Shown in pieces: positions 29,834-35,039 of a stretch of 64,000 nt of DNA. How positions within the stretch are numbered: the stretch's first letter is position 1; each line of letters starts with the position of its first letter. Under the pieces are notes generated by a model. That model did no database searches and had not been told where the DNA came from. It saw only the letters and a list, made by a program, of their open reading frames with translations. Source of the DNA: a bacterium (lineage in GTDB: Bacteria; Sumerlaeota; Sumerlaeia; SLMS01); the NCBI GenBank assembly GCA_016125005.1, contig WGMQ01000005.1:62001-126000 (forward strand). The letters are read 5' to 3'. Both the position numbers and the translations under genes were made by a program.

Positions 29834-29859
29834 CCCACACGCAGAACCCGGCAGGAAAG

Positions 29860-29893
29860 CGGCCCGCCACGATCATCCGTGGCGGGCCGTTGT
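29860..29893 (+). terminator. Terminator hairpin after amt
   Basis: A perfect 12-bp stem CGGCCCGCCACG / CGTGGCGGGCCG with loop ATCATC is followed by TTGT. It begins 27 bases after the amt stop codon. Confidence 0.8.
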
Positions 29894-29966: not shown

Positions 29967-31010
29967 TCACTCCGCCTTTAGCCCCATCTGACGACGGGTC
30001 TCTGCGAGCGACAACGGCCCGAAGCGGTCGAAGGCGGAGGGCATCAGGTTCGCCGTCGAAACATCCAGCGCTCGCCTGTCGCCGACGATGGCGGGTGTCA
30101 GGTCGTCGGAGCCCTCTGCCATGATCACGGCTCCGTCCGGATAGACATCCCGCAGGTTGAAGAACGTCTTCGGGAAATCCGCTGGCAACGCCTCGATATG
30201 GAGAAGGGCGTAGTCCCATTTGAGGATCTCCCCCTGCGTGCCGAGCACCTGGGTGGAGGTGGCCTTTGCCGGGATTCGATGCCCCTTGTAGCTGGTCCAG
30301 CCCGACACCTCAATCATGTTCACCTTCACGCCGTCGGCCAAAGAGGTGACGCTCTTCAGTGCCCCCGATTCGTAGCGATAGACGTCATCGAACACGGGCT
30401 GTCCCTTCAGGCTGATCGTGATGGTCTCGGCGGTTCCGACGCTGCTGTAACTCACGGTGCGCTGCCGAAAGGCTCTTCTCAATCGTTCATCGCGGTCGGT
30501 GATACCCAGTCGCTTGAAAGTCTCCACCAGTTCCTCGCGCGACATGGGCGGATCGGTTTGGCCCGGATCGCACCACTCGGAAAGGGGGAACTCGACAGCG
30601 GCGGTGCTTCGATAGGTCAGCCCGGCCAGCGACAGGCCGAACTGAAATTCGGTCACCTGATTCTTCGGTCGTAGCCACCCCCCGTTCATCCCATTGCCCC
30701 AGGTCCAGGTCCCGTTGCCGTCGAACGACCAGATCGTGCGGTCATCCCCCGAGAAGTCCTTGTCGGGAAAAGCGCTCAACATCTCCGCATACTCAAGAGA
30801 CCCCATCTTGACCGTCAGGCAGCGATCAACCGTGCCGTCGGGACCGCGCTTCTCCACAATGGCGGCACAGCTCGCCATGTCGGCCTCGATGGCGGCCAGA
30901 CGACTCAGCAGCGCACTCAACGTGTAAGTCGACGCCCGGTCATCCCCGCTTGCAGGAAGCGGGGAAACGGCGCACAGAAGCAATGCCATTAGACAAAGGT
31001 ATTTTCTCAT
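29967..31010 (-). CDS. Secreted protein of unknown function
   Basis: 347 aa from the ATG at 31010. The ORF track adds 70 residues that overlap the cysteine-rich gene out of frame. A clean signal peptide is present (MRKYLCLMALLLCAVSPLPASG). The mature part looks like a lipoprotein-localisation-type beta fold: 'TIWSFDGNGTWTWGNG' and 'YRYESGALKSVTSLADG' suggest antiparallel strands, as in outer-membrane lipoprotein carriers. No family was recognised with confidence. The start overlaps the stop of the cysteine-rich gene by four bases (31007-31010), so the two are co-translated. Base composition is nearer the genome average than that of its two upstream partners. Confidence 0.65.
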   Translation of the reverse strand: MRKYLCLMALLLCAVSPLPASGDDRASTYTLSALLSRLAAIEADMASCAAIVEKRGPDGTVDRCLTVKMGSLEYAEMLSAFPDKDFSGDDRTIWSFDGNGTWTWGNGMNGGWLRPKNQVTEFQFGLSLAGLTYRSTAAVEFPLSEWCDPGQTDPPMSREELVETFKRLGITDRDERLRRAFRQRTVSYSSVGTAETITISLKGQPVFDDVYRYESGALKSVTSLADGVKVNMIEVSGWTSYKGHRIPAKATSTQVLGTQGEILKWDYALLHIEALPADFPKTFFNLRDVYPDGAVIMAEGSDDLTPAIVGDRRALDVSTANLMPSAFDRFGPLSLAETRRQMGLKAE

Positions 31011-31441
31011 GGACAAAATGACCTGCCAGCGTAATTGGGCCCACATGTGTCCGCACAACAGCTCCCTCGCTTCCCACAGTTTCCGGACCAAGAATTCGAG
31101 ACTTTGCAATAGGGCTGCCCATCCAGAGAAACGGCGCACGATCCGACCTTTCGGCGACCACAGCTCTGAGCGTCTTGGTGTCCCTGACAGTGCTGTTTCT
31201 CGTCTCCGGTAACCAAGCAAGCATAGCCGGAACTGCCAGGCGTCTCACAAATCTGGCAGACGTTGTTGAACGGTGCCTGTAAACAATAGTTGGCTGCATC
31301 ACTCGCGCTAGCACAACCTATCGATGCTACGATGCAACAAGAACCATACTTGGCTTCTCCTGCGGCCGGAGCCCAATTGAATGACTGCAGAAGGCAGATT
31401 CCCAGAAGCAATAAAAAAAACAAGCAGTTTAATTTATTCAC
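31007..31441 (-). CDS. Cysteine-rich secreted protein
   Basis: 144 aa. A signal peptide (MNKLNCLFFLLLLGICLLQSF...) precedes a mature region of ~115 residues with about 16 cysteines in pairs and spaced sets (SCCIVASIGC, VCQICE, SCCADTC). The even, dense pattern suggests a disulfide-bonded extracytoplasmic domain rather than a metal site, because histidines are few. No family was recognised. It sits five bases after the TPR-protein stop and overlaps the next gene's start, so the three form a tight operon. The DNA is clearly AT-richer than the rest of the window, with many A-runs at its 5' end, suggesting horizontal acquisition. Confidence 0.65.
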   Translation of the reverse strand: MNKLNCLFFLLLLGICLLQSFNWAPAAGEAKYGSCCIVASIGCASASDAANYCLQAPFNNVCQICETPGSSGYACLVTGDEKQHCQGHQDAQSCGRRKVGSCAVSLDGQPYCKVSNSWSGNCGKRGSCCADTCGPNYAGRSFCP

Positions 31442-31445
31442 AATA

Positions 31446-33311
31446 TCACCAGTTTACCTTGTTCAGTTTGCACTCAGGCCATCTTTCGTTGACATACGTC
31501 TTAATTCTCAAAAAATCTGACACATCGCCCTGTTTCTTGGCAACAAGAGCGGCGTCGAACCATGCATACGCATGATAATTCAATGTGTAAAAGAAGGGTG
31601 CGTCCTCGGGAATTTCGTCTCTGACCTTCTTCATTAAAGTGGAAGCCTCGTCATATTGATTCATTTGACGAAGGCTTGACCATGAAAAGTAACTTGCGGT
31701 ACCCAGCTCACGGTACTGTTTGGGATAGAGTCGCCACATCTTCTGTTCCATCGCCACGACGGTTGTAAATTCGTTCTGTAGATAATGGGATTCTAAAGTC
31801 ATCAGGTAAGCCACAGAGGTTACATCGGGTCCAAACTCCGAACTGTTTATGATTTCGCTGAGTACCTCGCGAACATTCGTCCATTCTTTGGCATCGTCAC
31901 TCGCCTTTGTCTGTTCAAAATACAATCCCGCAGCCTCAATCGTGGCCAACCCCTTGTCGCGTGAATTGCTGTGCAGCGACTCACGCCAGTCAGCCTGAAG
32001 AGTTATGACTTTCTCAAGGGACTGAACGGTTTTTTCTGTAACCGGAGGCTCCGAAAATTCGCTCTGTCGTGGTCTATTGTAAATTTCTGAATGTGCGAGA
32101 TTCTTCATTGCAAGTCGAGCCTCCAAAGTCCAAGGATGTCGCTCGTTAAGTACAGGAACCGCGGAAAGGAACTGCTCGAAAGCCTTGCTTGCTTCATCCC
32201 CCTTCCCAATTTTCGTCAGGAGGTAGGCTCGGCGCAACAGAGCCTCCTTTCGGAAGAAAGAGTCTGGGTTCTCTGTCAAGAAAAGATCGATCCTCGAAAG
32301 AGCTTCAAGTGAGTTCGCCTTGCCGACCTGCAGCGCCGCCCGTAGTTGCCTGTTCTCCTCTTCATAGTTGGAATTCTCGTAGACTTGTCCGGATATTTCT
32401 TCACTTAACTTGGAGGCACGGCAAGCATACACTCCAAAAAGAGGCTCGGCAGTCATGAGGTTGCAAAGCCTGGAAGCCGCAAATAGGTCGTGGTGTCGAA
32501 TCTTTTCGCAGTAGGCATACGTACGCTGCGCAACCAAAAGAATATCTACGGAGCGACTTCGCGCCCCTTGAGTACGAGCTACAAAGTCTTCGAGTTGGCC
32601 CGTAAGCATTGCGTTGTCGACATCTGGATTGGCGGAATCGCGTAGCAGCTTAAGCCACATCATAGCAGCTTTTGATTCACCGAAAGCCCCTGGATCGCAT
32701 TGATATGCACGATCAAAGTAGTCTTCGGCGGTGTCTAAGTCGCCTGATCTACTAAGGTGGATGTAGCCGCAGTGGACAAGTGCTTCTGCTCTATTTGTGA
32801 AACTTACGTCTTGTGCAAAGTTTGTCGTGTGAGCAATGTACTCATCATATTTCTTGGCTTTCCAGAAGTGCCGAAGTAGGTCGATTTTCGCTTGTGGGGC
32901 GTCTGGAGACTGTGAGCATTGATCGGCGATCTTCATCCATAATTCAACAGCCTCTTCTTCTTTTCCATATCCCACGAGAATTGGGCAACACAACAAGTCG
33001 ACTTTGCAGAGGTACGGACTCTCGGGGTTCTTGTTTCGAATACTGTCTGCCAGTCGCAATACATCACTTGATCTTCCCATATCGAAAAGACATGCTGCTT
33101 CTTTGTACTCAAAAAGAGATTCGAATTGTTTTTTGTCAGCCTGCTGAAGGACGGACCTGCTAAGATTCTTCGCCTGATCGTACTCTTTTGTTTTGTACTT
33201 TAACAATACTTCTCGGACGTCTAACGGGAGAGCGTCCACGTTCAATTGCGCCACCCCTGAATGGGCCAATGATAGAATTGTGACTACAGCAAGTGTAGCG
33301 AGCTTTTGCAT
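31446..33311 (-). CDS. Secreted TPR-like repeat protein, AT-rich
   Basis: 621 aa from the ATG at 33311, which has TTGGAGGG four bases upstream; the ORF track's longer start is not needed. The signal peptide MQKLATLAVVTILSLAHSGVAQ is followed by helical repeats resembling tetratricopeptides ('EALVHCGYIHLSRSGDLDTA', 'ALLRRAYLLTKIGKGDEASK', 'SSLRQMNQYDEASTLMKK'). It is likely a periplasmic protein-binding scaffold. Its base composition and codon choice are much AT-richer than flanking genes, so the gene was probably acquired from another source. It leads the operon with the cysteine-rich protein and the 347-aa secreted protein. Its partner is unknown. Confidence 0.75.
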   Translation of the reverse strand: MQKLATLAVVTILSLAHSGVAQLNVDALPLDVREVLLKYKTKEYDQAKNLSRSVLQQADKKQFESLFEYKEAACLFDMGRSSDVLRLADSIRNKNPESPYLCKVDLLCCPILVGYGKEEEAVELWMKIADQCSQSPDAPQAKIDLLRHFWKAKKYDEYIAHTTNFAQDVSFTNRAEALVHCGYIHLSRSGDLDTAEDYFDRAYQCDPGAFGESKAAMMWLKLLRDSANPDVDNAMLTGQLEDFVARTQGARSRSVDILLVAQRTYAYCEKIRHHDLFAASRLCNLMTAEPLFGVYACRASKLSEEISGQVYENSNYEEENRQLRAALQVGKANSLEALSRIDLFLTENPDSFFRKEALLRRAYLLTKIGKGDEASKAFEQFLSAVPVLNERHPWTLEARLAMKNLAHSEIYNRPRQSEFSEPPVTEKTVQSLEKVITLQADWRESLHSNSRDKGLATIEAAGLYFEQTKASDDAKEWTNVREVLSEIINSSEFGPDVTSVAYLMTLESHYLQNEFTTVVAMEQKMWRLYPKQYRELGTASYFSWSSLRQMNQYDEASTLMKKVRDEIPEDAPFFYTLNYHAYAWFDAALVAKKQGDVSDFLRIKTYVNERWPECKLNKVNW

Positions 33312-33467: not shown

Positions 33468-35039
33468 TCAATACTCAGCTTGCGGGAACGTGTGGTACAT
33501 TTCCGGTGACGAGCCGGTGCTGGAGAGGGAGCAGCTTGGCTCGGTGGCGATATCGCCGATCGTGTAGGTCCCGCCGCCGGGACACATGGGCGTCCGCCGT
33601 ATATACGCCTGCTCGCCGACAAGGTCCTCCCAGGTCGGTTGCGCGTCCGCTGCGGCGTTGTTTTCGAGCGCCCATTGCTGCTTGGCGCCGTCGATCTTCG
33701 CGAGGTTTTCCTGGCACGCGTTGCGCCCCGAGATGTCGCGGGCGCGTAGGAACGACGGCACGGCAATCGCACCCGCCATCCCCATCGGGAGAGCACCCAG
33801 CGCGGCGAGCATCGAGCGGCTGTCGCGCTTTTCGCGCGAGACCCATTCGATCCCTTCGTCCGTGTTGCGCGTGATCGCCACCCGCTGGTGCAGGCCGTAG
33901 AGGGTGCCGATGAAACCTGTCATCTTCTCGAGAATGGCCTGATCCGACTCGTTGTTGGCCGTTTCCGCGAGGGCGGCATTGAGGGTCTCCATCACTTGGG
34001 ACGACACGAAGATCATGCTGTTGACCTCGGTGGGGAGCCCCGCCGTGAGGGTCTTGTATTCCTCCGACTCGGAAAGCCCGCCGGTCCCGGCGCGATGGCG
34101 CGCCACCGCGGCCGCAAGCATGGCGGGGGAGGTGCTCGACACGAAGAAGTCCTTCCCGTCTGCTGTATAGCTCATCTCGCAATCGGGGCAGATATTCGGG
34201 AGCAACACGTGGGTGAAGTTAATCCCGTCGGACTCGACGGTCTTGACCGTGAAGCCCTCTCCCTTGAGACGCGTTGTCAACGCATCGTAAAGGACCCCGT
34301 CGCCAATCTCGACCGTGGCGTAGATGTCGGGCCGCGCAAGGGTCAGCGTCTTGGACGAGTCATCGAGCGGGATGGTGACCGTGACGCCGGGGCGCGGGGC
34401 CACGGCGATGGTCATCTCGCCGTTGACCGCCTCAAGGATTCGTTGCAGCGGCATGCGCGCCTGGATGTCCATCATGGCCAGGCCCATGTTCACCATGGCC
34501 TCACCCGATTGCGGTTCGACGGCGCTGGCCGCCTGGCGGATCGCCTTCACCCATTTCCCCGGATAGGTGGTGGCCGTTGTATAGATCATGGTCTCGGTCG
34601 GCGCGAAGTGCAGCAGGCGGGGTGTGTGGGCGGGCTCGTTCGTGGGCGCAAGGAGTCCGATGCGCTCGCCCTTCAGGTGCAGGAAGGAGCGGTTGATACT
34701 GAGCCCCGTCGCGGCGTCGGTCCGGCCCGACATGCCAAAGCCCGCGATCGACCCCAGGCCCATCTTGGGGTAGCCGTCCTTGAGGAACTTGATGATCAGC
34801 TCACCATTCTGTTGGTTATCGAGGGGTGCGGACTGGTTGAGGACTTCGCAAAGCGGCGCCAGTTCAGAGCCCAGTGTTTCGAAAAAGTCGTCGCTGTCCA
34901 GATAGACATAGAACGAGCCGCCGGGATCGAGGTGCTTCTGCACCGCCATGAAATCGGGGTTCGGTTCGAAGTCCTGGGCGCCGACAGGCGCACCCGCGAG
35001 TACAACTGCCGCAGCAGCGGCGAGGATCGTTTTCTTCAT
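33468..35039 (-). CDS. Secreted DUF3352-like protein fused to a pilin-type C-terminal domain
   Basis: 523 aa. The signal peptide MKKTILAAAAAVVLAGAPVGA is followed by ~380 residues resembling DUF3352 (YVYLDSDDFFETL near the start, 'FVSSTSPAMLAAAVARHRA' later). The last ~110 residues match the soluble half of a family of type IV pilin-like proteins: AGAIAVPSFLRARDISGRNAC, 'NLAKIDGAKQQWALEN' and a GGTYTIGDIATEPSC end. The prepilin cleavage site and most of the pilin helix are missing, so it cannot assemble as an ordinary pilin. The mature protein is probably periplasmic or surface-bound. The composition is normal for the genome, unlike the gene set that follows it. Confidence 0.75.
   Translation of the reverse strand: MKKTILAAAAAVVLAGAPVGAQDFEPNPDFMAVQKHLDPGGSFYVYLDSDDFFETLGSELAPLCEVLNQSAPLDNQQNGELIIKFLKDGYPKMGLGSIAGFGMSGRTDAATGLSINRSFLHLKGERIGLLAPTNEPAHTPRLLHFAPTETMIYTTATTYPGKWVKAIRQAASAVEPQSGEAMVNMGLAMMDIQARMPLQRILEAVNGEMTIAVAPRPGVTVTIPLDDSSKTLTLARPDIYATVEIGDGVLYDALTTRLKGEGFTVKTVESDGINFTHVLLPNICPDCEMSYTADGKDFFVSSTSPAMLAAAVARHRAGTGGLSESEEYKTLTAGLPTEVNSMIFVSSQVMETLNAALAETANNESDQAILEKMTGFIGTLYGLHQRVAITRNTDEGIEWVSREKRDSRSMLAALGALPMGMAGAIAVPSFLRARDISGRNACQENLAKIDGAKQQWALENNAAADAQPTWEDLVGEQAYIRRTPMCPGGGTYTIGDIATEPSCSLSSTGSSPEMYHTFPQAEY

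Follow-up and report, generated by a model that had tools for sequence, protein, structure and literature searches.

What do three tightly packed genes for apparently secreted proteins, one of them crowded with cysteines, do together in a bacterium of the uncultured phylum Sumerlaeota, and do they form a unit at all? The locus lies in a 64,000-nucleotide stretch of DNA (the window) on contig 29 of a Sumerlaeia MAG of 4.69 Mb that is 88.5% complete. All three genes are on the minus strand. Gene 1 (31446..33311; ATG at 33311, TGA ending at 31446) is preceded by a Shine-Dalgarno-like GGAGGG and encodes a TPR protein of 621 aa. After a gap of 4 nt (TATT) it is followed by gene 2 (31007..31441; GTG at 31441, stop at 31007), whose product is a Cys-rich protein of 144 aa with 18 cysteines, 16 of them after the signal peptide. 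Gene 3 (29967..31010; ATG at 31010, stop at 29967) overlaps gene 2 by 4 nt (ATGA) and encodes a predicted secreted protein of 347 aa. The packing and the count of mature cysteines agree in full with the preliminary description of this DNA. Its view that all three proteins are exported is also supported, in that the N-terminus of each contains a hydrophobic signal-like segment, as assessed by inspection and with a hydropathy heuristic that counts membrane proteins too.

A 14-bp GC-rich hairpin (29858..29891, no strand assigned) sits between the trio and a convergent gene that we take to encode an ammonium transporter. It matches the consensus and might be a shared terminator, such matches being no more frequent in the region than in shuffled sequence. 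Promoter and terminator scans of the region gave matches at shuffle level, and a comparison of two genomes revealed no shared structure in the upstream leader.

A close trio in the same gene order is present in two other Sumerlaeota MAGs, G008 from another family of the same order as the host and G004 from another genus of the same family. Both emerged from a single-sequence search that had the TPR protein as query, after which the neighborhoods were read. The same kind of search missed these copies when the query was the Cys-rich or the third protein, so negatives obtained in that way with these two proteins are weak. Among the close trios, the TPR proteins are 23-31% identical, the Cys-rich proteins 31-39% and the third proteins 25-28%, and the homologous third genes hold the same position. 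Pairs of Cys-rich proteins scored above all 300 shuffles (z 9-16, or z 6-11 with the cysteines held fixed), and in a shuffle test the window third protein reached z 9-11 against those of G008 and G004. Weak matches in G001 and in G000:C92 (G000 being the host genome) are likely due to chance and were set aside. The preliminary description had suggested looking for the trio elsewhere; its recurrence in the same order confirms that it is a real unit whose linkage is more than chance.

The surroundings of this unit are not conserved. By profile searches the close trio is restricted to three of 39 Sumerlaeia genomes (host, G008 and G004), and is therefore dispensable, and its flanks differ in every one of them. 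By our reading of the sequences, the window trio is presumably flanked by an ammonium transporter gene and a DUF3352-like gene (a weak match), that of G008 by serC and a sulfite/nitrite reductase-like gene, and that of G004 by plsX and an amidase-like gene. An empty site was sought by way of the upstream gene at 33468-35039, whose relatives mostly match only its short C-terminal tail. Plasmids held no relatives of the third protein, and the viral contigs searched for relatives of the trio held none.

The layout extends beyond the close trios. We compared the surroundings of genes related to gene 1 with 20 control stretches, filtering both in the same way for small secreted ORFs that contain 8 or more cysteines and leaving the window copy out of the count. 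Six such ORFs lie within 2 kb of a TPR-family gene (240 kb scanned) and one lies elsewhere (628 kb); six of seven thus adjoin TPR-family genes in 28% of the scanned DNA (P 0.002). All six are the directly downstream gene on the same strand, and each is followed by a gene for a secreted protein of ~300-400 aa (in G008, G004, G028, G034, G009 and on host contig 89). Besides the two close trios this gives four further loci with the trio layout and diverged partners, on host contig 89 and in G028, G034 and G009. The second host cassette (contig 89; L122 12997-15605) comprises TPR, Cys-rich and third-protein genes, the first two overlapping, and its Cys-rich protein has a TPTPTP linker. The seventh ORF (G028 contig 292; L100 398-1754) has no TPR gene directly upstream or in view, and the gene after it encodes a protein related to the G028 third protein (z 21). 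A clear relationship (z 7-21) links the third proteins of G028 and G034, whose similarity to that of G008 is borderline (z 4.1). In the G009 cassette (contig 84; L123 10284-13093) the third gene is duplicated in tandem, the copies scoring z 95 against each other.

Could these nevertheless be unrelated secreted genes, linked by chance or moved as passengers of transferred DNA? Such an account would accommodate the unusual composition of two of the genes, the differing flanks and the lack of known domains in two of the proteins. Against it, several genera preserve both the gene order and the tight packing, diverged partner pairs recur in G028, G034, G009 and the second host copy, and the conservation of cysteines and many other residues at 25-39% identity needs long selection. 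Recurrence largely refutes this explanation, which we consider highly improbable.

How did the unit come to be where it is? Against a reference of 140 genes of at least 600 nt from about 250 kb of the host genome (mean GC 0.632, sd 0.032), the TPR gene has the lowest GC of all (0.478, z -4.8), with a GC3 of 0.50 compared with a reference mean of 0.79. The Cys-rich gene is also AT-rich (0.517, z -3.6), and the third gene is normal (0.612, z -0.6). The contrast between the first two genes and a native-like third is thus as first described, and the composition of the former is not one shared by much of the genome. Low GC is also a recurrent trait of the TPR family. All three family genes found in the host are AT-rich (0.478, 0.541 and 0.532), and across 30 loci the TPR gene lies below its neighbors in 73%, by 3.8 points on average. 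The contig 89 trio, with GC of 0.541, 0.493 and 0.586 in gene order, again has its least AT-rich gene in third place, as in the window. The composition is therefore no proof of a single recent insertion, an argument that we dropped because the contig 89 trio and the third family member are AT-rich too.

Of the recent transfer originally proposed, the element of mobility is supported by the patchy presence (3/39), by the differing flanks and by the fact that the closest match is not the genome that shares the host's family, and the element resting on base composition is weakened by the family-wide AT bias. TPR similarity does not follow taxonomy: G008 and G004 resemble each other more than either resembles the host, although host and G004 belong to one family. 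Low GC, patchy presence, different flanks and non-taxonomic similarity together fit lateral movement within the lineage.

The TPR protein offers the best handle on function. By sequence, it belongs to a TPR family expanded in Sumerlaeia and defined by a C-terminal domain of ~180 aa (31446..32003, minus strand), from which we built profile A8. The window protein scores 217.6 bits and is itself a seed of the profile; relatives were also found independently of A8, by a single-sequence search and by a search with profile A1. A8 has 56 matches, spread over 20 of the 39 Sumerlaeia genomes, with up to seven in one genome. In a control set of 242 genomes the best match outside Sumerlaeia reached 43.9 bits, and most Sumerlaeia members score higher. 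On this evidence the domain marks a Sumerlaeia family above roughly 45 bits, and members near that value rest on gene context as well, including the second host copy, which at 45.9 bits is slightly above the best outside match. TPR families are promiscuous; at E 1e-14, a profile search of 386 genomes, most of them from other families, gave no match to the TPR protein beyond Sumerlaeia. In the three close TPR proteins (window, L005, L006) the final residue is an invariant Trp, perhaps a signal for sorting or docking.

Weaker matches to the TPR profile span only the C-terminal ~180 aa and often occur in proteins that start with a SPOR domain, a module that binds peptidoglycan in known proteins. 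The domain (PF05036) exceeds the Pfam cut-off in TPR-family relatives of G028 and G036. We counted the SPOR domains in many relatives in favor of a wall-associated scaffold. Like SPOR-TPR envelope proteins, the window protein is apparently exported and rich in TPR repeats, and several SPOR-starting Sumerlaeia proteins share its C-terminal domain; it differs from them in having no SPOR match (PF05036) of its own. To our knowledge, neither this C-terminal domain nor the pairing with a Cys-rich protein is part of any described SPOR protein.

Through its repeats the TPR protein also shows weak profile similarity to BamD, YbgF (CpoB) and PilW-type proteins, from which it differs in length and gene context. 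This similarity bears on a role as an accessory of a type IV pilus or type II secretion system, in which the TPR protein would take the part of a pilotin or of PilF/TadD, with the Cys-rich and third proteins as minor tip components, linked to the gene upstream. That gene (33468-35039, minus strand; 523 aa) has a DUF3352-like body, a weak match, and appears to be fused to a pseudopilin-like tail recognized by inspection; the tail is common to many short ORFs. Over its final ~105 aa the protein shares 44-69% identity with free-standing pseudopilin-like ORFs, of which there are several copies per Sumerlaeia genome. Type IV pilus genes are reported for Sumerlaeota MAGs in one genome paper (PMC8092238). 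However, the PilW, BamD and YbgF matches all fall below cut-offs (28.9 bits against 81.4 for BamD, TIGR03302; 22.3 against 90.1 for YbgF/CpoB, TIGR02795), no counterpart of the upstream gene adjoins the trio in G008 or G004, and by inspection neither small protein has a prepilin N-terminus. A pilus role is very unlikely.

The neighbors of the wider TPR family point towards the cell surface. Of 34 genes that come next in the same direction, 28 encode a signal-like segment, compared with 76 of 155 such genes from control DNA (P 0.0003). Members outside the trio layout are followed by larger secreted proteins, including Cys-bearing ones of 290-530 aa, and Calx-beta-like and beta-helix proteins are also among the neighbors, several of these names having been given by inspection. 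Among the large neighbors scanned, the Pfam cut-off was reached by beta-helix matches and by one glycosyl-hydrolase-20 domain-2 match. We counted these large secreted surface-type neighbors in favor of an envelope or surface cassette. Beside members of the family we also noticed large secreted proteins in which an RHS-like body follows a Cys-rich N-terminus (L111 6382-11256 and L094 8953-12501; G010), and a secreted Cys-bearing neighbor in G009 (contig 95; L102 6117-7721) with a possible transglutaminase-like segment by eye and no Pfam match.

These pairings also bear on a bacteriocin-like cassette, in which the Cys-rich protein would be a disulfide-stabilized toxin, the TPR protein would aid its export and the third protein would protect the producer. 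The Cys-rich protein is small, secreted, patchy in distribution and encoded by an AT-rich gene in a neighborhood that differs from genome to genome, and the partners diverge strongly between groups, as such a system might lead one to expect. With bacteriocins and knottins it shares a signal segment, small size and a high, mostly even number of cysteines; at about 120 aa in its mature form it is larger, and it matches none of their families. No toxin family was matched in PADLOC, PHROGs, Pfam or NCBIfam, nor any defense or phage family in PADLOC or PHROGs. The third protein is itself apparently exported and is large for an immunity protein, and the Cys-rich protein is no more variable than its partners in the close trio (31-39% identity, compared with 23-31% and 25-28%). 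The pairing of the same TPR family with many secreted surface-type proteins, some of them very large, favors a role in export or envelope assembly over a toxin, and we regard a bacteriocin-like function as unlikely.

What, then, is the Cys-rich protein? Twelve cysteines are invariant across the three close relatives (window, G008 and G004). The window protein contains one CxxC and two CC motifs, of which one CxxC and one CC pair are conserved among the relatives. A second, weakly similar group is formed by the proteins of G034, G028 and contig 89, which have a Pro/Thr linker, and the G009 protein stands alone, outside both groups. None of the eight Cys-rich proteins contains a CxxCH heme motif, so they are not c-type cytochromes. 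The mature cysteine count is even in seven of the eight, as expected if all cysteines are paired. VKOR was not found in the 88.5% complete host MAG, which we counted against disulfide formation. One relative gave a match to an omega-atracotoxin over 17 residues (E 0.05), which is below the cut-off and at chance level.

The cysteines could instead bind metal or cycle thiols in an extracytoplasmic metal-binding or redox module, with the third protein delivering a ligand. Their high density, the conserved CxxC and CC pair, and genes with heavy-metal-binding motifs near the second host trio (C89, L113 2086-4808) would suit such a module. Set against this, there is one CxxC among 16 cysteines, few histidines lie near the cysteines, and the even counts and long loops suit disulfides better than a metallothionein. 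A thioredoxin-like domain was not found, and no metal-transport neighbor was seen beside the trios of G008, G004 or the window. We consider this explanation quite unlikely.

Neither the Cys-rich nor the third protein has a match in Pfam, NCBIfam, PHROGs, PADLOC or the PDB, in keeping with the initial impression that the trio corresponds to no described system, and the two add two unrecognized protein families. The AlphaFold model of the Cys-rich protein (pLDDT 44) was left out of the fold search, and that of the third protein (pLDDT 35) was too poor for fold comparison. Third proteins resemble LolA-like secreted proteins in being apparently exported and ~300-400 aa long, and several end in LP followed by an F-P-x-G-T-like pattern that may resemble the ends of such proteins. 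None of nine third proteins matched a LolA-type model in Pfam or NCBIfam or had a relative in the PDB. A profile search of solved structures with the third protein brought up nothing above chance level, an ADP-ribosyltransferase component (E 0.18) among the matches, and these we rejected.

Tight packing, signal-like N-termini and conservation of the unit in several genera frame the interpretation that we tentatively prefer, at a little less than even confidence: the trio would be an envelope or surface cassette specific to the Sumerlaeia lineage, made up of a TPR scaffold, a disulfide-rich product and a partner. Location, disulfides, interactions and function are predictions of this model. All three proteins would pass through the inner membrane along the general secretory pathway. 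The TPR protein would stay in the periplasm, associated with the wall, as a scaffold or chaperone, its TPR part holding a secreted partner and its shared C-terminal domain contacting common machinery. The Cys-rich protein would be oxidized to a compact disulfide-bonded form and delivered to the cell surface or the outside, where it may serve as a structural or adhesive component. The third protein might be its dedicated carrier, anchor or second subunit.

The wider family raises the possibility, which we hold to be real but doubtful, of a new Sumerlaeota system for export or display. Here, TPR proteins that are associated with the wall and share a private C-terminal domain would be dedicated, client-specific secretion or assembly factors. 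Each would be encoded next to a secreted client of its own, either a small Cys-rich protein accompanied by a third subunit or a large surface protein.

Little has been written on the envelope or secreted proteins of this phylum. The two genome papers on Sumerlaeota that we found treat metabolism, stress and evolutionary history, and a term search of their text returned nothing on such cassette proteins (PMC8092238, PMC10866078). The trio studied here is a real but undescribed cassette that may act in the envelope or at the surface. Its recurrence, and its tie to an expanded TPR family, would provide a testable entry into how Sumerlaeota build or decorate their surface.
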